25,453 nt of DNA from a virus. Positions 5,755-24,382 of this stretch are shown piece by piece. Position 1 is the stretch's first letter. Every line of letters begins with the position of its first letter. The translations under genes and the position numbers were made by a program. Location of the stretch: positions 1 through 25,453 of IMG/VR virus record IMGVR_UViG_3300024433_001888. One strand, 5' to 3'. The notes beneath the pieces were generated by a model. That model saw only the letters and a list, made by a program, of their open reading frames with translations. It made no database searches and was not told the origin of the DNA.

Positions 5755-6744
5755 ATGCGCGTCGCAATCCACCGGCAGGGATTTGGCTTCGGGAAACCCG
5801 CCGGATTCGGCGGGATGGAAACCCAGCAGGCTGAGACGATCAAATGGCTTGAGCGATTAGGCGTCGAAATTGTCTATGACTGGACAAAGGCCAAGGTAGT
5901 TCACTTTTTCGGTGTGTATGGGAAGACCCCGATGCGGATGGCCGAGGCTCGTAGCCTCGGCAAAAAGATCGTGCTCTCCACGGTTTACTGGACTTACAAG
6001 GAGATGCATCACCCGCAAAGGCGAATGGCACATCACCTGCGGCAGTTCCATTGGGCTTACCATGAAGCCGATCTATTACTCCCGAATAGTCATGCTGAGG
6101 CGGCGCTTATCTCCGGAGAGTTCCAGGTGCCGAAATCCAAGATGCGGGTCGTGGTGAACGCTGTCCCCCCCGATATTAATGAGCAGGCAAATGGGGTTGG
6201 GCTTGAGGATTGGGAAATCTGCGACATGCGAGACTACATCCTGATCGTTGGGCGTAATGAAGGCCGGAAAAATCAATTCCGATTTCTCAGTGCCATGCGC
6301 GATGTCGATGTGCCGATTTTGATGGTAGGCGACTGTCACTATGAGCACGATTATTATTGGGCCTGCTGGGAGATGGCACAGAAGAGACATGCGCGGACAG
6401 AGTTTTTTATGGGGATCCCGCCCCCGAGAATCTATCACTATATGAAAGGCGCCAGGCTTGTCGCGCAGCCATCCATCTATGAAACCCCGGGCCTGGCCGT
6501 TCTGGAAGCCGCCGCGCTGGGGGTGCCGGTCGCACCGACTAACCGAGGATCTGCCCGCGAGTACTTTGGGAATGCAGTCTATTATATCGATCCATTCACG
6601 CCGGAAAGTATGCAGGGGTGTCTGAAGGCGACCGCGACGGATACAGCGCAGATCCAGATGCGGATGCTTCAGAATTATACCTGGGAAATCGCAGGGCGAC
6701 AGACAATGAATGCATACAAGGAGGTGCTGGGCCGATGGCTATAA
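5755..6744 (+). CDS. GT4-type glycosyltransferase (Glycos_transf_1)
   Basis: 329 residues; ATG after a GAGGTAAG ribosome site. It has the GT-B plan of family 4 retaining glycosyltransferases: an N-terminal Rossmann half with a glycine-rich start (GFGGME, residues 17-22), an LLPNSH segment at 108-113 where such enzymes cross between domains, then a nucleotide-sugar half with VGRNEGRKN at 165-173 (basic residues R167 and K172) and the EX7E motif as E243 and E251 in YETPGLAVLEAAALG. It transfers a sugar from a nucleotide donor to an unknown acceptor. It is first of a three-gene cassette with a methyltransferase and a nucleotidyltransferase, pointing to glycan decoration of phage or host surface. 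Confidence 0.88.
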   Translation: MRVAIHRQGFGFGKPAGFGGMETQQAETIKWLERLGVEIVYDWTKAKVVHFFGVYGKTPMRMAEARSLGKKIVLSTVYWTYKEMHHPQRRMAHHLRQFHWAYHEADLLLPNSHAEAALISGEFQVPKSKMRVVVNAVPPDINEQANGVGLEDWEICDMRDYILIVGRNEGRKNQFRFLSAMRDVDVPILMVGDCHYEHDYYWACWEMAQKRHARTEFFMGIPPPRIYHYMKGARLVAQPSIYETPGLAVLEAAALGVPVAPTNRGSAREYFGNAVYYIDPFTPESMQGCLKATATDTAQIQMRMLQNYTWEIAGRQTMNAYKEVLGRWL

Positions 6745-7421
6745 ACCCCCGCATTGAATTGCTGAATGGACAGAACAAATATGGCGACTTTTGGTCACAC
6801 GGGCCATCGCCGCTACACATAAGTTTCACCAACCGGAATTCCTGGTTCAAAGACCTCTCTTACGAAGCGCCGATCGTGGGGATCTTGGAGTCAGAACGAT
6901 ACGGGTTTTTCCTTGATGTCGGCGCGGGCTGGGGTTACCACACAATAATTGCCGCACATCACTGCCGATCGGTTGTCGCCTTAGAGGCCAACGCTCTGCG
7001 ATTCGGGCTATTGTGTTGGAACACACAAATGCTCCCGAACGTCTGCCGGCACCTATGCTTTGCCGGTCGCGAGGGGCAGAAGGCAAAGCGTAGCCGAGCG
7101 CCATGGAATCCGGTCGAAGCCAGAGATCCCGAGGTGGAATTATCTGCGGTTACGCTCGATGGCATATTACGTCAGCATGCGGATTATCCCTTGGTCGGGG
7201 AGCCGGGCCTGGTGAAGATCGATGTGGAGGGAAGTGAGCTGGATGTGTTGGCGGGCGCCAAAGGGCTCCTTGCTGATGACAGATTCGATTGGATCGTTGA
7301 AATTCACACGCGGATGGGCGTTACGTTTGATGCGGTCGACCTGGCAATGGGCAACAGGATCCGCGAGAACCTTTCGGCGAAACATGCATATTATCGAACG
7401 GGGGCCGAGTCCGATGAATGA
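6735..7421 (+). CDS. FkbM-type SAM-dependent methyltransferase
   Basis: 228 residues from the ATG at 6735, ten bases inside the end of the glycosyltransferase gene. An upstream in-frame start at 6618 lies deep inside that gene and is rejected. The class I SAM-binding loop is FLDVGAGWGYHT (DVGAG at 61-65). The acidic end of strand 2 is ALEAN at 82-86. The family hallmark KIDVEGSE at 161-168 and a later VEIH at 188-191 match FkbM methyltransferases, which O-methylate sugars and similar hydroxyls. It overlaps both neighbours, so it is translated with them. The likely substrate is a sugar added by the upstream enzyme. Confidence 0.88.
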   Translation: MAINPRIELLNGQNKYGDFWSHGPSPLHISFTNRNSWFKDLSYEAPIVGILESERYGFFLDVGAGWGYHTIIAAHHCRSVVALEANALRFGLLCWNTQMLPNVCRHLCFAGREGQKAKRSRAPWNPVEARDPEVELSAVTLDGILRQHADYPLVGEPGLVKIDVEGSELDVLAGAKGLLADDRFDWIVEIHTRMGVTFDAVDLAMGNRIRENLSAKHAYYRTGAESDE

Positions 7422-8250
7422 TCCAGTTGTGGCGGTTATCCTTTGCGCCGGGCAGGCCACGCGTTTCGGTGGCGTTGTCAAGCAATTGCTCGAGATCGAC
7501 GGCGCGCCACTCGTCCAGCGCATGCTGAATCAATGTGCTGCACGCGGGATCCCCGCCTGGTTGATTACCCATCAGCCCGGGGTATATGAAGGAGCCGGGA
7601 TCCGCACCAGGTTTTTTGAGCCACGCGGGCATCGCTGGACATGCGAAACCCTATATTCTACGCGTGATCTGTGGGGGACAGAACAGACCATTGTCCTCTT
7701 AGGTGATGTCTACTATTCAGATTTTTGCATGGATCTACTGGTGAAGGGCGAGACGATGTTTTATACCGGCGAAGCCGAGATATGGGGGATGGCCATCCGG
7801 CGCCAGTATTACGACCGAGCGGGGAAGACACTCCGGCGTGTATTGGATCTCGCGGCGAAGCGGCAAGATGCAGGGGAACATCACTGCGGACAGCTCTGGC
7901 GATATTATCGGGTTTGGTATGGCCTGGCCTATATCGGCGATTGGAAGATCACGCCGGGGTTGGCGTTTCAAAGAGCCGGAACTACGCGCGTGGTTTTCGA
8001 TGAGACGGTGGATTTCGATGTGCCCGTAACCTATGAACGCTGGCAGGCCGGGCTGCGTGGTCGGCAGGTATGGTGGAATGCTTTTCGCCCGGGGACGAGT
8101 CCGGGATTGCCGCTCTGGTGCGAATGGCTAAAAGGCCTGCGTTGGGAAGGCGAGAAATGGCGCTGCCCGAAAGACGGAGAATTACACAGTGGATTCAAGG
8201 GATGTGCTCCCGCAACCTGCAAGTATTATGATATCACGAAAGGAGGCTAA
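7414..8250 (+). CDS. MobA/GlmU-like nucleotidyltransferase with cysteine-bearing tail
   Basis: 278 residues from the ATG at 7414, overlapping the methyltransferase by eight bases. The N-terminus carries the nucleotide-binding signature of sugar-phosphate nucleotidyltransferases, LCAGQATRFGG (10-20) with a lysine at 23 (VVKQLLEIDG), and a metal aspartate at about 98 in VLLGDVYYSD. Such enzymes make NDP-sugars or similar activated donors. Here it probably supplies or modifies the donor for the adjacent glycosyltransferase. The last 30 residues contain three cysteines (about 251, 264 and 269) in a short extension after the enzyme core, possibly a metal-binding tail; I do not know this extension from the family. 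Confidence 0.78.
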   Translation: MNDPVVAVILCAGQATRFGGVVKQLLEIDGAPLVQRMLNQCAARGIPAWLITHQPGVYEGAGIRTRFFEPRGHRWTCETLYSTRDLWGTEQTIVLLGDVYYSDFCMDLLVKGETMFYTGEAEIWGMAIRRQYYDRAGKTLRRVLDLAAKRQDAGEHHCGQLWRYYRVWYGLAYIGDWKITPGLAFQRAGTTRVVFDETVDFDVPVTYERWQAGLRGRQVWWNAFRPGTSPGLPLWCEWLKGLRWEGEKWRCPKDGELHSGFKGCAPATCKYYDITKGG

Positions 8251-13772: not shown

Positions 13773-13986
13773 CCAAACGAGGGCCACAGAGCGCGCGTGT
13801 GCGACTTTTATTCAGATCGAGGGGTCAAGCCCCAAGCCGAAGTCGATCGCGGCGCCCTGGGCACGCCAGCGAGAACCTGGGCCATCTGAGCGCAGAGAGG
13901 AGGTGCCATTTGCGGCGCGCAGGGTTTGACCTGGGATCCCGACAGGTGACAAGAACACTTACCTTTTGCTGAATTGGAGGATGAGA

Positions 13987-14931
13987 ATGGCAGAGAAGAA
14001 GGACAAGAAGGACGAGGCCACAACCGGGCTGCCGCCAACCGCGAAGCCGAGCCGGAGGAAGTACGTTGAGGCCAGCGAGAAGTTTCTCGAGGAGGCCTTG
14101 ATGGGGATGGAGCTGACCGAGGTCGAGCCGACCATCTCGATGGCGCTCTACGGTCGCGCGGGCGTAGGCAAGACCGTGTTTGGATCCACACTGCCCGCGC
14201 CGCTGATCCTGGCAGCCGAGTCCGGAGCGCTATCGATCCGCGACAAGATCGCCGATCCCGAGTGGCCGGGCAAGGTGATCGACATTAAGACCTACGATGA
14301 CGTTCTGCTGGCGCTGGAGTTCTGCCGCAAGGATACCAAGCGCAGGTTTAAGAGCGTGGTGATCGATTCGATTTCGGAATTGCAGCGCAAGTACATGGAT
14401 TACCTGATGGACACCAACCAGACGAACACGATGTCGCTGGACATGTACGGGCAATGCACCACCGAAATGCGGCGCCTGGTTCGCGAGTTCGTAGAACTCA
14501 AAATGCACGTCCTGGTCATCTGCGGCGTCCGCGATGACAAGGACGAGGAGCAGGGTGGCATCGTTCACAAGTGCGGGATGGTCGGGCGGATGTCTGACGA
14601 GCTGCCGCACCACGTTGACGTGGTTGGCTACATGGCGGTGCGCGCGCCGGGGGCGAAGGAAGAAGACCAGACGGTCAAGCGCTTCATCGTGACCCAGCCC
14701 ATGCCGAAATACGATGGCAAGGATCGCTCCGGCAAACTCGACCGGATCATGCGACCGGACTTCGCGTACTTCACCGAGAAGATCTTCGGGGAGCCCGCGC
14801 CGGAAGCACCCACTGCGGAGGCCGAGAAGGGAACGCCCGAGGCCGAGCCAGGCGATGATGCCAAGACAAGTTCCGCGCCGGAGACAGCGGCGCCAGATGC
14901 TGAGACCGATGGTGGAGGTGAGCAGGATTGA
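13987..14931 (+). CDS. Sak4-like RecA-fold ATPase (AAA_24 type)
   Basis: 314 residues from the ATG at 13987; TTGGAGG at 13974-13980 favours it over the ATG at 13981. Walker A is GRAGVGKT at 56-63 and Walker B is SVVIDSISEL at 123-132, in a RecA-like core of about 220 residues. The pattern matches phage Sak4/AAA_24 proteins, ATPases that promote single-strand annealing with a partner SSB during phage recombination. The last 50 residues form a low-complexity acidic Ala/Glu/Pro tail ending GGGEQD, plausibly a partner-binding tail. It overlaps the DUF669-type gene downstream, consistent with a recombination pair. Confidence 0.85.
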   Translation: MAEKKDKKDEATTGLPPTAKPSRRKYVEASEKFLEEALMGMELTEVEPTISMALYGRAGVGKTVFGSTLPAPLILAAESGALSIRDKIADPEWPGKVIDIKTYDDVLLALEFCRKDTKRRFKSVVIDSISELQRKYMDYLMDTNQTNTMSLDMYGQCTTEMRRLVREFVELKMHVLVICGVRDDKDEEQGGIVHKCGMVGRMSDELPHHVDVVGYMAVRAPGAKEEDQTVKRFIVTQPMPKYDGKDRSGKLDRIMRPDFAYFTEKIFGEPAPEAPTAEAEKGTPEAEPGDDAKTSSAPETAAPDAETDGGGEQD

Positions 14932-15329
14932 CCAGGATCACGTTCCCCGAAGATGATGGGCCGCAGTTTGAGCTCCTGCCAGAGGGGATATACCGGGCCC
15001 AGATATGGGCCATCGATGAACGTCTCGGCGAACAATCGCAGCAACCATACATGGCCTTCGATTTCAGGATCGAGCAGAGTCCGCGTCACCTTTTTGACAA
15101 TTTCAGCCTACAGCCCCAGGCGCTCTGGAGGTTAAAGCGCCTCTTCGAAACCCTTGGTTTACCGAGCAAGGGCACGCTGGACATTGATTGGGACAACGAG
15201 GTGGTAGGCTTAAGGGTGCAGTTGGTGGTTGAGCACAAAGAGAGCCGCGGGAAAATGCGGGAGGCCATTGTGGAATACCGCAACCCCTCACAAACGGGGC
15301 TCGATGAATTCGGGGAGGTGCCATTCTAA
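14928..15329 (+). CDS. DUF669-type protein, probable ssDNA-binding partner
   Basis: 133 residues with a TTG start at 14928 that overlaps the ATPase stop; GGTGGAGGTG lies upstream and decides this start. The beta-rich body with GIYRAQIWAIDER near residue 20, the RHLFDNFSLQPQALWRLK segment at about 53-70 and FETLGLPSKG next to it follow the DUF669 pattern, usually found beside phage recombination ATPases and replication initiators. Such proteins are thought to bind single-stranded DNA or aid recombination. The family assignment is from memory of motif order, without an alignment. Confidence 0.75.
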   Translation: MTRITFPEDDGPQFELLPEGIYRAQIWAIDERLGEQSQQPYMAFDFRIEQSPRHLFDNFSLQPQALWRLKRLFETLGLPSKGTLDIDWDNEVVGLRVQLVVEHKESRGKMREAIVEYRNPSQTGLDEFGEVPF

Positions 15330-15348: not shown

Positions 15349-16440
15349 ATGCCGGACAAAATAGGGATCCGGTTTGACCGGCCACGCGCGCAGCGTGGGT
15401 TTGTGATGATAGATTACGTCATCGTCACAGACACAGATCTGTCGGATGGAGCCTTCCGCACCTATGCGGTGCTGAGAAAATTCGCATGGGATCACGAAGC
15501 GTCATTGACTGAAGATGGTGACCCCTTTTGTTACCCGGGCTTGACGCGCATTGCCGAAGAAAGGGGGCAAAGCGAACGGAATGTGATTAGACACATTCAA
15601 GAAATCGTCAAGCGAGGGTATCTCACGAAGGAGCGGCGCGGGCAGGGCCAGACGAATCTGTACATAATCGTGACCAGCCTGCTCGCTTTTGAACTCAGAA
15701 GTGACAATATTGTCATATCTAGAAGTGACACCGGTGTCACCCGAAGTATACTCAGTAAAGACTCCGCTGATAATGCCGCCGCCAAGGGCGGCGAGCCTGC
15801 GCTTAAAGCGCAGGCGTATACACGTGAGAAGCTTATGGGGGCCATCAATGCGTTCCGCGATCTGCATTTGCGGAAAAAACAGCGCAAATATTTGGTCAAT
15901 TGGTCACGAGATACCGCAGCGCTGAAGCCGGTATTGGAGACGTACCCGCTCGATACGGTGCAGCAGATGATAGCCATTTATATCACGATGCCACGCCGAA
16001 GATATACCGTCGCCGCATTCGCCACGGCGGTGCCAGACCTGATTGTGTTACTGGATGAATGGCAGACGCGGCAGGCGCGCAAACAGAAGATACAGGGAGA
16101 GCTAACGGCGCTCGAGAGGTTGAGCCGGGGATTTGAAGAGGAAGTGATAAACGCAGGGGCGATGCTCAAGACGCTCGATGAAAGATTGACCGCATTGATT
16201 AAGCCCGGGATCATTCCGGACGCAGCCACACGCGATGCGATCGCGCGGGTCAATGAAGACAGTGCCGTGGTGATGTCGGGGATCTTTGAGCGCGCCTGCC
16301 AATCTGCCGGGGTACCAACCGGACTGGCCGGAGAGGTTCTCAAAGAGATCGATGGCCAATGGGATGATGTGCGAGGGGCAATTAAGAAATGTACACAACG
16401 GCGGATTCCAAAAGAGGGAGGTGATAAACCTGCCGGATAA
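15349..16440 (+). CDS. Winged-helix replication initiator (lambda O-like organisation)
   Basis: 363 residues from the ATG at 15349, preceded by GGGAAGGAGCC; the open frame extends upstream to 15229 inside the previous gene. Residues 31-107 form a winged-helix domain of the HTH_36/replication-protein type (LSDGAFRTYAVLRKF, YPGLTRIAEERGQSERNVIRHI, then GYLTKERRGQGQTNLYII as the wing). A serine/aspartate/alanine-rich linker at about 115-158 follows, then a helical C-terminus with a probable coiled coil. The DNA encoding the linker carries repeated palindromes and hairpins, the arrangement of lambda O with its origin. It probably melts the origin and recruits a helicase. Confidence 0.78.
   Translation: MPDKIGIRFDRPRAQRGFVMIDYVIVTDTDLSDGAFRTYAVLRKFAWDHEASLTEDGDPFCYPGLTRIAEERGQSERNVIRHIQEIVKRGYLTKERRGQGQTNLYIIVTSLLAFELRSDNIVISRSDTGVTRSILSKDSADNAAAKGGEPALKAQAYTREKLMGAINAFRDLHLRKKQRKYLVNWSRDTAALKPVLETYPLDTVQQMIAIYITMPRRRYTVAAFATAVPDLIVLLDEWQTRQARKQKIQGELTALERLSRGFEEEVINAGAMLKTLDERLTALIKPGIIPDAATRDAIARVNEDSAVVMSGIFERACQSAGVPTGLAGEVLKEIDGQWDDVRGAIKKCTQRRIPKEGGDKPAG
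15697..15815. other. Probable replication origin inside the initiator gene
   Basis: AGAAGTGACA occurs at 15697-15706 and again 24 bases later at 15721-15730. Each copy opens a perfect palindrome: TGACAATATTGTCA (15702-15715) and GTGACACCGGTGTCAC (15725-15740), separated by an AT-rich stretch. Further on, GCCGCC pairs with GGCGGC around 15777-15792, and GCCTGCGCTT pairs with AAGCGCAGGC at 15795-15815 across one central base. Together they resemble iterons plus stem-loops, placed between the DNA-binding and C-terminal domains of the initiator. Confidence 0.6.
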
Positions 16441-16855
16441 ACCATTCATATTCCTTGTCCAAGGAGGGGATTCCCCCGAGGTAGTTCCTAAAGCCGAAGT
16501 GGTACCTATTCAGGCCATGGCCGAAGCGTCGCGGCGAGCACATGCCGGGATGCACAATACGCGCGCTTTTTATAAGCGTGTTATGACAGAGATGGCTGAA
16601 GCACAGGTAGATGATCCGGCTCTTCAGGGACTCACGCAACGCCAGGCATTTGTGATTCTGTTGCAGAAATATCTGCAGGTTGACAGCACGATCGCCCCTC
16701 AGATCACGGAATTCGCGGCCAAGGTTATTACGCTACTGCGCTGCGTTGGGATGCCTGGTTCGCCGCACGCACGTGCAAATAGTGAGTCGCTGAAAATGGC
16801 TGCACAAATTGCCTGGGCATTTGCCGAACACATGAAGGGAGAGCATACGCCATGA
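16430..16855 (+). CDS. Hypothetical replication-module protein with a likely CTG start
   Basis: 141 residues if translation begins at CTG 16430. A near-perfect ribosome site, GGGAGGTGAT (16416-16425), lies five bases upstream. The GTG at 16421 is buried in that site, and the first ATG (16517) has none. The CTG overlaps the end of the initiator gene. The protein is helical in its second half (RQAFVILLQKYLQ, ITEFAAKVITLLRC, LKMAAQIAWAFAEHM) with no recognised motif. It lies between the initiator and the DUF932 gene, so it may be a replication accessory such as a helicase loader; it lacks a visible P-loop. Confidence 0.65.
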   Translation: MPDKPFIFLVQGGDSPEVVPKAEVVPIQAMAEASRRAHAGMHNTRAFYKRVMTEMAEAQVDDPALQGLTQRQAFVILLQKYLQVDSTIAPQITEFAAKVITLLRCVGMPGSPHARANSESLKMAAQIAWAFAEHMKGEHTP

Positions 16856-17901
16856 GAATTATCCCGAAATATCGGCATGACTTCGAATCGATCGCCGATG
16901 CTCGCGCGTTCATGGTGAATCGCGAGGTGCATGATTTTGATGTCGTCGCAGGCGATAGCGGCTTTGGATTCGCTGGCGACATGGTACGGATCGGGGCACG
17001 TGCGTACCCGATCTCAGAATCTTTCCTGCAGGCATTTGCGGGATTTGTCAGCCCGAAGATCCCGATCCGCTTTGCCCGGGATGTACCTGCGGATCTATTC
17101 GAGACCATAGGGACTCGCCTGTTGCGCACCGAGAAGGTGAAGGGCACGCATTTCCAAGTCCGGGTTGAGGCCTGGCGGGATCCGCAGACACAGATGCAAA
17201 CCCGGATCGTTGCGCAAGCAATTGTGAGCGATAGGTATCGCTGGCTCAATCACGAACGGGTTCTCGATGAAGCCCTGGCCGTAACCGATAAAGGCCAGGT
17301 TACGCTGACCGATCTGATGCTGCGGGTGCGAGCACAGACTGAGCAATTCATGGTGCAGCCCTGGGACAACATGGCCAACGTTTCAACGGACGATTTGCAT
17401 TCTGTCGGCTTTGAGATCTTGAACAGTGAAACCCGCAACTTAGCAATCAGCGTTGCGCCCTATGTGTTACGGCTGGTCTGTACCAACGGGCTGGTTGTTG
17501 CCGAGAAGAATCTCGCACAGATCTGGAAACAGAAACACATGGTCGATCCCGATTCGGCGCTCCGGACTGTCCGGGAAATTATTAATGACCCTGAACGTTG
17601 GGAAGAAGTCGCGGAGATCTACGCAGACAATGCGGAGGCGATGTCCAGGATGTTGCTGCGCGATGCTCAAGGCCAGACCGATATCCGTGATGTCGCCTTA
17701 GATCTGGAAGCGCAGATCGGGCGGAAACGCTGGCTTGTGATATGGGAAGATCTACAGTCGCAGAAACCCAGGGTCGCGCTCACGCGTTGGGATCTACTGA
17801 ATGCGATTACCCGATATGCACAAGATCAGGCGCCGGATATGCGGCGCGGTCTTGAGGCTTATGCTGGCATTTATATGGCAGCCAGTTTACAGGAGGCGTG
17901 A
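16852..17901 (+). CDS. DUF932-type phage/plasmid protein
   Basis: 349 residues; the ATG overlaps the previous stop. It follows the DUF932 pattern: a beta-rich N-terminus with repeated aromatic turns, the region QAIVSDRYRWLNHERVLDE at about 123-141, and the family-like segment SVAPYVLRLVCTNGLVV at about 199-215. DUF932 proteins are frequent on phages and plasmids near recombination genes; their biochemical role is poorly defined, with proposed links to DNA recombination or anti-defence. Placement beside the initiator and upstream of the nuclease fits that pattern. The downstream start lies on its stop codon. Confidence 0.75.
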   Translation: MRIIPKYRHDFESIADARAFMVNREVHDFDVVAGDSGFGFAGDMVRIGARAYPISESFLQAFAGFVSPKIPIRFARDVPADLFETIGTRLLRTEKVKGTHFQVRVEAWRDPQTQMQTRIVAQAIVSDRYRWLNHERVLDEALAVTDKGQVTLTDLMLRVRAQTEQFMVQPWDNMANVSTDDLHSVGFEILNSETRNLAISVAPYVLRLVCTNGLVVAEKNLAQIWKQKHMVDPDSALRTVREIINDPERWEEVAEIYADNAEAMSRMLLRDAQGQTDIRDVALDLEAQIGRKRWLVIWEDLQSQKPRVALTRWDLLNAITRYAQDQAPDMRRGLEAYAGIYMAASLQEA

Positions 17902-18542: not shown

Positions 18543-18871
18543 GGGATGATGACCGGCGCCTTTTCAGGGCGCGATACCGGCGCGGCTTTGATGGCAAATG
18601 GATCCCCTGTGCGGATGCTGAGATATTGCACCCTGGAGACACATTCGTGACAGTCAAGGCGGGGGTATGGGTCGTCTCCGCGCGCGACAGCGGTGTTGGA
18701 ATCGAGGTGCGCGCCATGAAGGGAATTACTGTTAAGCGAGGGATAGGGACGCTCTACCGCAACGTGGTCGCCTTCCGACACCTCTATGGCGAGGAAGCGC
18801 AGGAGGTGCTCGCCGATTACGATGCAAGAGTCGGGGGATTACTCGACGGAATGGAGAAAGGCGATGGCTAA
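18539..18871 (+). CDS. Hypothetical basic protein
   Basis: 110 residues from the ATG at 18539, overlapping the previous stop as ATGA; a longer upstream frame from 18257 would run through the previous gene and the structured element and is rejected. The N-terminus is very basic (RRLFRARYRRGFDGKW), the middle is beta-rich (GDTFVTVKAGVWVVSARDSGVG, VKRGIGTLYRNVV), and an acidic helix closes it. It may be a small OB- or SH3-like nucleic-acid binder; this is not established. It is coupled to the nuclease gene that follows by an eight-base overlap. Confidence 0.6.
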   Translation: MRDDDRRLFRARYRRGFDGKWIPCADAEILHPGDTFVTVKAGVWVVSARDSGVGIEVRAMKGITVKRGIGTLYRNVVAFRHLYGEEAQEVLADYDARVGGLLDGMEKGDG

Positions 18872-19655
18872 AGAGTGGTTTAAATTCATCTCAATTTCTC
18901 AAGAGGGGAGTTTCCGTGATTGCCCCTATCGGTATTATCTGGAACGCATCCTGAAGATCCCGCGCGTAACAACGGTGCAGCAATTGTTCGGATCGGCGAT
19001 GCATGCCGCGCTTGCGCTTTTCAACCGGGGGTTGCGCAGCGGGACGGTTCTGCCATTTGATCTTCTCGTGTGGGAATGGCAGAAGGCCTTCGGGGCGCCG
19101 AATGATTATTGGGAGTATCGCGCGCGCCGGATCCTCGCGCATTATATCGCAGATGTCGCGCCGCACTTGGGCAAGCCGCTGTTGGTGGAAGAGCAGTTCT
19201 ATATCGACATTACCGATCGGCTGCCGTATAAGAGTCGGGTGCGATATATCCTAACCGGCATCATCGATCTTCTCACCGAGGACATGGCTCTCGCGGACTA
19301 TAAGGTCGTTAAGAAGATCCGAACGATCCAGGATGTTATGCAAGAGGTTTGTTATCTGGAAGGCGTCCGGCGGATGCTGAAAATAGCACCGGATACGGCT
19401 TGCCGGATCCATATCATTCGGGAAAGCGATCCGGTGGAGGTTGTGCGCGATTGGATGCAGGTTCAACAGAAAGACATTGACGAATTTTGGGATCGGATGA
19501 TAGGCTTCGTGGGGCATTTGAGGAGGCGCGTCTTTATGAAAAACACTCAATCAAGATGGTGCCATCCGCGTTGGTGCCCTCACTACGGCACTGTCTGTCA
19601 CCCCGAATCCATTGAGGAGGTGGCACCTACATGTCACGCAGGCGCATCTGTTTGA
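18864..19655 (+). CDS. Cas4/RecB-like PD-(D/E)XK nuclease with Fe-S cysteines
   Basis: 263 residues from the ATG at 18864. Motifs appear in the expected order: C20 in SFRDCPYRYYLERI, a GSAMHAAL helix at 43-50 with H47, VEEQF at 108-112, GIIDLL at 132-137 with D135, LADYKVVKK at 143-151 (D145, K147), QEVCYL at about 160-165, and a terminal cluster of C233, C238 and C245. The early lone cysteine plus three late ones is the 4Fe-4S arrangement of Cas4/AddB nucleases. It probably resects DNA ends for recombination together with the Sak4-type module. No cas1/cas2 or CRISPR array is nearby, so it is a phage recombination nuclease. Confidence 0.83.
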   Translation: MAKEWFKFISISQEGSFRDCPYRYYLERILKIPRVTTVQQLFGSAMHAALALFNRGLRSGTVLPFDLLVWEWQKAFGAPNDYWEYRARRILAHYIADVAPHLGKPLLVEEQFYIDITDRLPYKSRVRYILTGIIDLLTEDMALADYKVVKKIRTIQDVMQEVCYLEGVRRMLKIAPDTACRIHIIRESDPVEVVRDWMQVQQKDIDEFWDRMIGFVGHLRRRVFMKNTQSRWCHPRWCPHYGTVCHPESIEEVAPTCHAGASV

Positions 19656-20639: not shown

Positions 20640-21183
20640 TACGTTTGCCGAAGATCAGGGCGGTGGTGCAATCAAGCCCGGCATAGGCTATCGATTCACC
20701 ATCGCGGAGAACCCCGAGGTGGAGATTCAAACCTCGACCATCATCGAAATCGCCGGGCACTACTTGGTACCACTTACGGCCAATGGTGAGTGGAACCTAC
20801 AGGTAGTGGGCGGCAGCGGTATTGCCAACGACCTTACAAATGCAATCGTGGGCATTGGCGGGACATATGCACCCGAAGAGGTGCAGAACGTGATGGTCGG
20901 CATGGCGATGTTTTTTGATGTGACCTTCCCGACCGATGCGTTTCGGGATGCAGCCACGCTTACGGCCGAAGAGATAGATGCGGGGCTGAAGGTCACCGAC
21001 GATGAGGCTTGGCTGTCAATGGGGATCGAAGCGCAAATTGACTTCAAGGCAGCGGGCCTGCCGGGTTCACTCGTATTGGGATGGGGTCGTGGATTCCGGG
21101 GTAAGCCGGATCAGGCATACTTCGCATTCCAGATTCCGATGTCGACTGAGAGTACAGAGGATCGCGTCAAGCGATCGCCGTAA
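20587..21183 (+). CDS. Secreted beta-rich protein with signal peptide
   Basis: 198 residues from the ATG at 20587, after GAAGGAGGTG. Residues 1-22 are a Sec signal (MRKILAVVVIVLLAMAAST, cleavage after TFA). The mature protein has glycine-rich strands with alternating residues (GYRFTIAENPEVEIQ, GHYLVPL, GSLVLGWGRGF, YFAFQIPM), suggesting an eight-strand-like barrel or periplasmic beta protein of the sort seen in outer-membrane proteins. No cysteines are evident. The stop overlaps the resolvase start as TAATG. It may alter the host envelope; the role is unproven. Confidence 0.65.
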   Translation: MRKILAVVVIVLLAMAASTFAEDQGGGAIKPGIGYRFTIAENPEVEIQTSTIIEIAGHYLVPLTANGEWNLQVVGGSGIANDLTNAIVGIGGTYAPEEVQNVMVGMAMFFDVTFPTDAFRDAATLTAEEIDAGLKVTDDEAWLSMGIEAQIDFKAAGLPGSLVLGWGRGFRGKPDQAYFAFQIPMSTESTEDRVKRSP

Positions 21184-21644
21184 TGGGGCACGTAATAACC
21201 CTGGTCATACCAGGCAAGCCCATCAGCAAGGACAACAGGCGCTCCCCGAGTTATCGGCGGGGAGCGCTTGCGATTATGATTCCGCAGGCTTATCAAGACT
21301 ATGAGAAGCACGTGGCGGTTTGGGCGCTACGGCAGATCCTTCGGCATAAAAATCGCCAACGGCTTCCCATCCGGCGACCGGAACAATTGGTTGCGCACCT
21401 GATGTTTTTCTATCCCACCGAGCCGACCGCGAATGATATTTTTAATTCACCGAAGAGCGTATGCGATGCGCTCGAGAAGTTCGCCTATGAGAATGACAAC
21501 CAGCTGGTTATCGGGAGCGTTGCCAAGGCGAAGGACGCTGAAAATCCGCGCGTGGAAATCATCATTTTGGACAACCCGCCGGATCCAACAATCCGTTGGG
21601 AGAGATTAAAGGCCGCAATAGAAGCCGGGCAGGAAATCCTTTGA
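21183..21644 (+). CDS. rusA: RusA-like Holliday-junction resolvase
   Basis: 153 residues; the ATG overlaps the previous stop as TAATG. It begins with the RusA-type strand and loop GHVITLVIPGKPISKDNRR. The catalytic block is PTANDIFNSPKSVCDALEKF at 81-100 (D85, N88, K91, D95) followed by ENDNQLV at 103-109 (D105), matching the D-x-x-N-x-x-K-x-x-x-D pattern and the downstream aspartate of RusA. The enzyme cuts four-way junctions during phage recombination and before packaging. Length is normal. It complements the Sak4-type and Cas4-like genes upstream. A structured element follows directly after its stop. Confidence 0.85.
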   Translation: MGHVITLVIPGKPISKDNRRSPSYRRGALAIMIPQAYQDYEKHVAVWALRQILRHKNRQRLPIRRPEQLVAHLMFFYPTEPTANDIFNSPKSVCDALEKFAYENDNQLVIGSVAKAKDAENPRVEIIILDNPPDPTIRWERLKAAIEAGQEIL

Positions 21645-23698: not shown

Positions 23699-23728
23699 TC
23701 TATATCACAAAGGGAGGAGGTGAGAACA

Positions 23729-24382
23729 ATGAGACGATGGTTACTTTTGATGTTGGGGATACTGATCGCCAGTACGTGCTTTGCTGGGGATCCGCATCAG
23801 CCGAACTGCTATCTCGAATGCGTGATCGGCTACAACACCCTGTATTGTCTGTGCGGCGATACTGGCGACGAGCAATGCGGCATCACCGTGTATGTCCGCG
23901 ACGAGGCGGGCAGCCCGTGTGAAGGCGTACAGGTTGAGGTGTCCCCGATGAAGATGTATCCGTACAACCCGTCTGAACAGGTCTATACGATGTGTGAGTT
24001 TGAAACCGGCGCGAACATCGGTTACACCAATGCCGATGGGGTGTGGGAATTCGCGCCGACACATATCGGGGGATCTGAGGTGGGGAACATGGCATGGCGC
24101 TGCTGGGTCGGCAGCCCATGGCAATTCTATATCGATGGCGGGGGGAATGCGATTAAAAGCGTGGACTTAGTTATTACCCCGAACACGCTGCCCCGTGACC
24201 AGGCCGTTGACCTGGCGGATTTCGGATACTTCGCGCAGTACTATTTGGGCGGGCCGGAGCCGCCTTATGTCTACAACCCGCTTTGTGATTTCAATTCGGA
24301 CATGGAGGTAGACTTGTCCGACTTTGGGATCTTCGCCAGCCATTATTTCCATGGATGTACGGGGGCTGGGATCGGGCGATGA
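23729..24382 (+). CDS. Secreted protein with beta domain and C-terminal type I dockerin
   Basis: 217 residues from the ATG at 23729, after GGGAGGAGGTGAG. Residues 1-19 are a Sec signal (WLLLMLGILIAS, cleavage near CFA-G). A cysteine-rich part and a CnaB/immunoglobulin-like beta domain follow (ITVYVRDEAGSPCEGVQVEV at 52-71, NADGVWEF at 101-108). Residues 159-206 hold two dockerin-type calcium motifs: DLADFGYFAQYYLG and DFNSDMEVDLSDFGIFASHY, with the Asp/Asn spacing of EF-hand-like loops. Dockerins bind cohesins on surface or extracellular complexes. In a phage the gene is probably accessory (host-surface or anti-competitor). Confidence 0.72.
   Translation: MRRWLLLMLGILIASTCFAGDPHQPNCYLECVIGYNTLYCLCGDTGDEQCGITVYVRDEAGSPCEGVQVEVSPMKMYPYNPSEQVYTMCEFETGANIGYTNADGVWEFAPTHIGGSEVGNMAWRCWVGSPWQFYIDGGGNAIKSVDLVITPNTLPRDQAVDLADFGYFAQYYLGGPEPPYVYNPLCDFNSDMEVDLSDFGIFASHYFHGCTGAGIGR

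Follow-up and report, generated by a model that had tools for sequence, protein, structure and literature searches.

A very likely lambda-type replication origin in the linker-coding DNA of a phage initiator gene

The stretch of DNA analysed here, 25,453 bases of an IMG/VR virus record, is referred to as the window. Its initiator gene sits among replication and recombination genes recognized with PHROG and Pfam profiles (Table 1). The encoded protein matches PHROG 270 (replication initiation, 3e-9) along with the O-like PHROG 678 (5e-7) and PHROG 391 (2e-6), and the latter two matches cover its N-terminal part only. A Pfam scan places HTH_36 (PF13730) at aa 30-92 with 29.5 bits against a cut-off of 25; the initiator is thus an HTH_36 protein above the curated cut-off, sited in a phage replication module. 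Based on the PHROG 678/391 matches and an AlphaFold model, the N-terminal domain is predicted to be the winged helix of an O-like initiator. In the same model, the winged helix (about aa 20-115) is confident and is joined to a helical C-terminal domain by a linker, residues 116-155, with pLDDT <50. Compared with the PDB, the model matches best to 5kbj, 4pql, and 4pt7 (E ~1e-3 over the winged-helix part), whose titles refer to a Rep-DNA complex, the N-terminal domain of a DNA binding protein, and an initiator, respectively. The 144-aa gene downstream of the initiator has no PHROG or Pfam match, and a search of the window and of a 56.8-kb relative turned up no DnaB-type helicase and no DnaC/IstB-type loader.

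Table 1. Coordinates of the features at the locus (positions in the window).
Feature	Position	Strand	Basis or property
Sak4-like ATPase	13966-14931		PHROG/Pfam
DUF669 gene	14928-15329		PHROG/Pfam
Initiator gene	15349-16440	+	363 aa; PHROG and Pfam profile matches
Winged-helix DNA-binding domain	15400-15693, about aa 18-115	+	HTH_36; AlphaFold pLDDT mostly >90
Iteron 1, TGACAATATTGTCA	15702-15715		perfect palindrome, 14 bp
Iteron 2, GTGACACCGGTGTCAC	15725-15740		perfect palindrome, 16 bp
AT-richer spacer, candidate unwinding region	15741-15776		GC content; putative function
Hairpin 1, CGCCGCC-AAG-GGCGGCG	15777-15793	+	7 bp, loop 3
Hairpin 2, GCCTGCGCTTAAAGCGCAGGC	15795-15815	+	8-10 bp
Helical C-terminal domain, candidate helicase/primase recruiter	15814-16437, about aa 156-363	+	AlphaFold; putative role
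144-aa gene overlapping initiator 3' end, position of lambda P	16421-16855	+	ORF
DUF932 gene	16852-17901		PHROG/Pfam
PDDEXK exonuclease	18786-19655		PHROG/Pfam
RusA resolvase	21183-21644		PHROG/Pfam

Elsewhere in the window, genes for a GT4-type glycosyltransferase, an FkbM-type methyltransferase, and a MobA-like nucleotidyltransferase are clustered at 5755-8250, possibly for surface-sugar or virion modification. A predicted secreted protein at 23720-24382, for which there is no Pfam match, has a signal-like start, and its C-terminal double motif (VDLADFGYFAQYY / VDLSDFGIFASHYF) is dockerin-like by eye and may hint at the host group.

The initiator gene contains inverted-repeat iterons within its coding sequence, between the DNA for two protein domains and with a spacing in the range of about 20-24 bp. 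Copies of AGAAGTGACA begin at 15697 and 15721, 24 bp apart, and the two palindromic iterons also lie 24 bp apart from centre to centre. The original prediction was correct about the repeats, their distance, and the palindromes of 14 and 16 bp, and inexact in that each repeat was said to begin a palindrome; the copies overlap the palindrome starts. TGACA-N4-TGTCA occurs nowhere else in the 25,453 bases, and shuffles lead one to expect 0 sites. A sequence-blind search for arrays of N4-spaced palindromes repeating every 18-27 bp gave a score of 6 at the iterons; no score above 4 came from 1000 shuffled versions of the segment or from the window's 206 other 360-nt tiles. The iterons are followed by a spacer of 44% GC, near the 6th percentile for 36-nt windows and lower than the initiator gene (54%), and then by two strong stem-loops, mapped shortly after the palindromes as anticipated, with about -32 kcal/mol for the pair. 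Together these elements make up the densest inverted-repeat cluster of the window, with four perfect ones in 140 nt against 1-3 in 30 shuffles. The whole block codes for aa 117-156, the disordered linker, and the AlphaFold model bears out the earlier placement between the DNA-binding and C-terminal domains. Cumulative GC skew, which had been suggested as a check, rises steadily through 15.7 kb without a turning point, and therefore adds nothing on the site of the origin.

Protein-based homologue searches yielded only three relatives, L002, L003, and L005. L002 and L003 carry little information because they are at least 97% identical (97-100%); L003 has 35 substitutions in the initiator gene, none of them in the block. 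L005 has a 52%-identical initiator preceded, as in the window, by the Sak4-like and DUF669 genes. In the homologue alignment, set beforehand as the refuting test of the predicted origin, L005 keeps the palindrome arms, their spacing, and both hairpins better than the linker residues, several of which differ. The iteron arms are retained in the form of TGACAAGATTGTCA for iteron 1 and TGACACCGATGTCA for iteron 2, with centres again 24 bp apart. Codon choice was compared at residues that are identical in the two proteins and have degenerate codons; the same codon is used at 20 of 23 such residues in aa 117-156 versus 60 of 154 elsewhere (Fisher p = 1.3e-5), in a test made on one informative sequence pair with block limits drawn from the feature itself. 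Taken separately, the iterons give 9/11 (p = 0.007) and the hairpins 9/10 (p = 0.002). In hairpin 1 of L005 the arms are identical and the loop is changed. In hairpin 2 a 3'-arm change from Ala to Glu (GCG to GAG) is paired with a synonymous 5'-arm change from GCG to GCT, and a second base pair is likewise altered on both sides, which makes two compensatory changes in total. In the lineage of the window, the hairpins are constrained at the nucleic-acid level.

The earlier comparison with lambda, whose O gene was said to hold its origin in the same place, was verified on the lambda record. Both O and the window initiator are of the winged-helix type, and both genes contain inverted-repeat iterons followed by a spacer and then a hairpin. 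The iterons start at codon 117 in lambda O and codon 118 in the window, and are spaced by 20, 24, and 23 bp in lambda and by 24 bp in the window. In lambda, an imperfect hairpin of 12 bp lies 44 nt after the last iteron; in the window, hairpin 1 starts 37 nt after it. There are also differences. Lambda has four iterons and the window two, of unrelated sequence; the lambda spacer has only 23% GC against 44%; the window has a GC-rich double hairpin; and no P is recognisable in the window by PHROG or Pfam profiles, the gene in the P position being the one without a match. The iterons of lambda are stated to bind O dimers, and iteron mutations that are silent at the amino-acid level abolish transformation by plasmids depending on a lambdoid origin (PMC5043065, PMC7466680). 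By analogy of layout, the window origin most likely belongs with the lambda O-type in-gene origins and works like them.

The motif also recurs in initiators of other phages. When 2.9 million viral contigs were scanned, on DNA alone, for a TGACA-N4-TGTCA pair with a spacing of exactly 24 bp, 61 contigs were found, some of them near-duplicates, whereas a scrambled version of the palindrome, with all gaps of 0 to 30 allowed, was found in 78 contigs, with 3 at 24 bp. With the gap left free, the true motif peaks at 22, 23, and 24 bp (14, 23, and 18 loci, from at least 108 loci among the matches listed). Distinct reading frames spanning the motif number 95, and 50 further loci have no frame of at least 90 aa across it. 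Alignment was made of 79 proteins, namely 78 of the 95 frames and the window; the other 17 were duplicates, relatives of the window itself, or oddly short or long frames. PHROG 270 is matched by 60 of the 79, and HTH_36 likewise by 60 of 79. The exact sites occupy two of the reading frames, one with 137 sites and the other with 68, the third being one that would contain TGA, and arrays spaced by 22 or 23 bp alternate frames within one gene. Because the motif is used in two frames, selection acts on the DNA, and the shared element is DNA rather than peptide. Just downstream of the viral arrays there is a dip in GC content, 0.43 against 0.51 for the genes. Among 56 initiators picked by PHROG 270 from phylum-wide genome samples regardless of motif (L411-L498, our own count), 14 have palindromic arrays of the same geometry with varied half-sites, compared with 1 of 340 shuffles. 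The known Lactobacillus phages phiPYB5 and phi jlb1 and Arthrobacter phage KellEzio likewise have winged-helix (HTH_36) initiators whose linkers contain palindromic repeats at a spacing of 23-24 bp; the half-sites are unlike those of the window in phiPYB5 (TGAAG) and phi jlb1 (TAACA), and KellEzio has degenerate TGACA-like sites in place of exact ones. TGACA-type iterons were absent from the TP901-1 rep gene.

Hairpins were considered as a general feature of such origins and rejected, being present downstream of 21 of 87 viral arrays versus upstream of 17 of 87. The hairpin 2 sequence was likewise dismissed as a mobile repeat; it has 60 viral matches, none of them behind iterons outside the lineage of the window. 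As far as these comparisons reach, the hairpins are confined to that lineage.

In bacterial genomes, 98 stretches carry the exact motif pair, and initiator-like frames were found at 16 of the 80 loci examined; since the other 64 lie outside such frames, the motif there probably serves as an operator for a regulator. Pairs of this kind with 24-bp spacing occur in the chromosomes of Dyella, Chryseobacterium, Sphingobium, Roseateles, and Myroides (L243, L249, L250, L259, L261, L263, and similar loci). The palindromes of the window could by the same token be operators, through which the winged-helix protein or another regulator controls an internal promoter or represses its own gene, with replication starting elsewhere. 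A promoter-like GTGACA-16-TATACT (10/12 match) at 15725-15752 does overlap iteron 2. Yet TGACA on its own resembles a -35 hexamer, L005 preserves the -10-like hexamer poorly, and the promoter as a whole is not clearly kept there. Moreover, the sites lie deep within the gene and are absent from the rest of the window, the viral motif sits in initiator linkers, and the layout of the lambda origin is reproduced. We regard operators as an improbable explanation.

It is also conceivable that the conserved structures act in the mRNA rather than the DNA, with hairpins that affect translation, an internal start, or mRNA stability. The strength of the hairpins and their compensatory changes would suit such a role, as would an internal ATG after them at about 15834. 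No such start is evident in L005, however, the hairpins have no Rfam match and no terminator-like T run, and the palindromic iterons phased at 24 bp would be left unexplained, which makes this reading very improbable. That the palindromes and hairpins arose by chance from the codons used in a low-complexity, dispensable linker is hardly credible: two of the three homologues are indeed too similar to speak on this point, but the array score was reached in none of the 1000 shuffles, and the codon constraint relative to L005, the recurrence of the motif in unrelated initiators found by the viral scan, and its use of two frames already contradict it.

We therefore consider it very likely that the repeats and stem-loops at 15702-15815 constitute a lambda-type in-gene replication origin, located in the linker of its own initiator. 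The original prediction of an origin is upheld by the anatomy of the block, its conservation at the DNA level in L005, the presence of the same motif in the linkers of winged-helix initiators from independent phages, and a layout equivalent to that of lambda. Set against it are the presence of two iterons only, the modest AT-richness of the spacer, the GC skew without a turning point, the failure to find a DnaB-type helicase or DnaC/IstB-type loader in the two records, the reliance on a single informative homologue, and the bacterial motif pairs, most of which fall outside initiator-like frames. Binding, melting, recruitment, and the role of the hairpins we infer as follows. Dimers of the initiator very probably bind the palindromes, with the N-terminal winged-helix domain predicted to place one dimer on each TGACA-N4-TGTCA. 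Two dimers 24 bp apart, a little over two helical turns, would form a nucleoprotein complex in which the DNA is wrapped or bent. Such a complex would strain the adjacent AT-richer spacer and cause it to open, and the helical C-terminal domain would then recruit a helicase or primase of the host. The hairpins may delimit the opened zone on its far side or, once single-stranded, aid helicase or primase loading, though they could instead act in the mRNA; the lambda palindrome in the same place may, by analogy, act in this manner.

A similar organization is found in plasmids. In pSK41, the origin lies in the linker-coding DNA of rep, and in pPR9 an HTH_36 domain and its origin have replaced the pSK41-type block in a plasmid that still replicates autonomously (PMC5703833). 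As in the window, the origin of pSK41/pPR9 Rep is situated between a DNA-binding N-terminal domain and a recruiting C-terminal domain, and the N-terminal domain of pPR9 Rep is HTH_36, as in the window initiator. In contrast to the phage initiator of the window, pSK41 Rep is a plasmid protein of the RepA_N type (PF06970) with another iteron sequence, and the Pfam scan of the window initiator gave HTH_36 only, with no RepA_N N-terminal domain. The modelled fold resemblance to RepA_N structures (E ~1e-3) may accordingly reflect similar working rather than membership.

An in-gene origin is a known arrangement, as in lambda. A recognition sequence shared with this spacing by many unrelated phages appears to be previously undescribed; a literature search for TGACA/TGTCA and phage replication found no report, with most subscription papers beyond reach, so that novelty is unproven. 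The recurring half-site and 22-24-bp spacing across phage initiators are the more interesting by-product of the analysis: one iteron geometry, and even one half-site, recurs in initiator genes of phages from many hosts. The replication origin of an uncultured phage can be located from sequence alone, and a simple DNA pattern finds origins and cognate initiators together, which makes initiator specificity and origin swapping testable. More tentatively, and with some doubt on our part, the 22-24-bp TGACA-N4-TGTCA iterons might represent a widespread, unnamed class of self-contained phage initiator-origin cassettes, whose linker DNA may be in either of two frames and to which the lineage of the window has added a covarying double hairpin as a helicase/primase-loading element.

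Residues 75-82 of the window protein, its recognition helix, were compared with the proteins of phi jlb1 (L398) and phiPYB5 (L397) in relation to their linkers. At the R77 position phi jlb1 has Gln, with TAACA half-sites; at the R81 position phiPYB5 has Ala, with TGAAG half-sites; and initiators with TGACA sites nearly always keep both arginines. A base-recognition code in this helix is possible from such sequence comparisons. The specific version considered, with R77 reading G2 and R81 reading C4 of the half-site, is not claimed because a wider sample shows only a loose trend. Finally, one locus (L111:10123-10989) contains fourteen TGACA-N4-TGTCA-like units in a single frame with a strict 33-bp period, unlike the 22-24-bp iterons.
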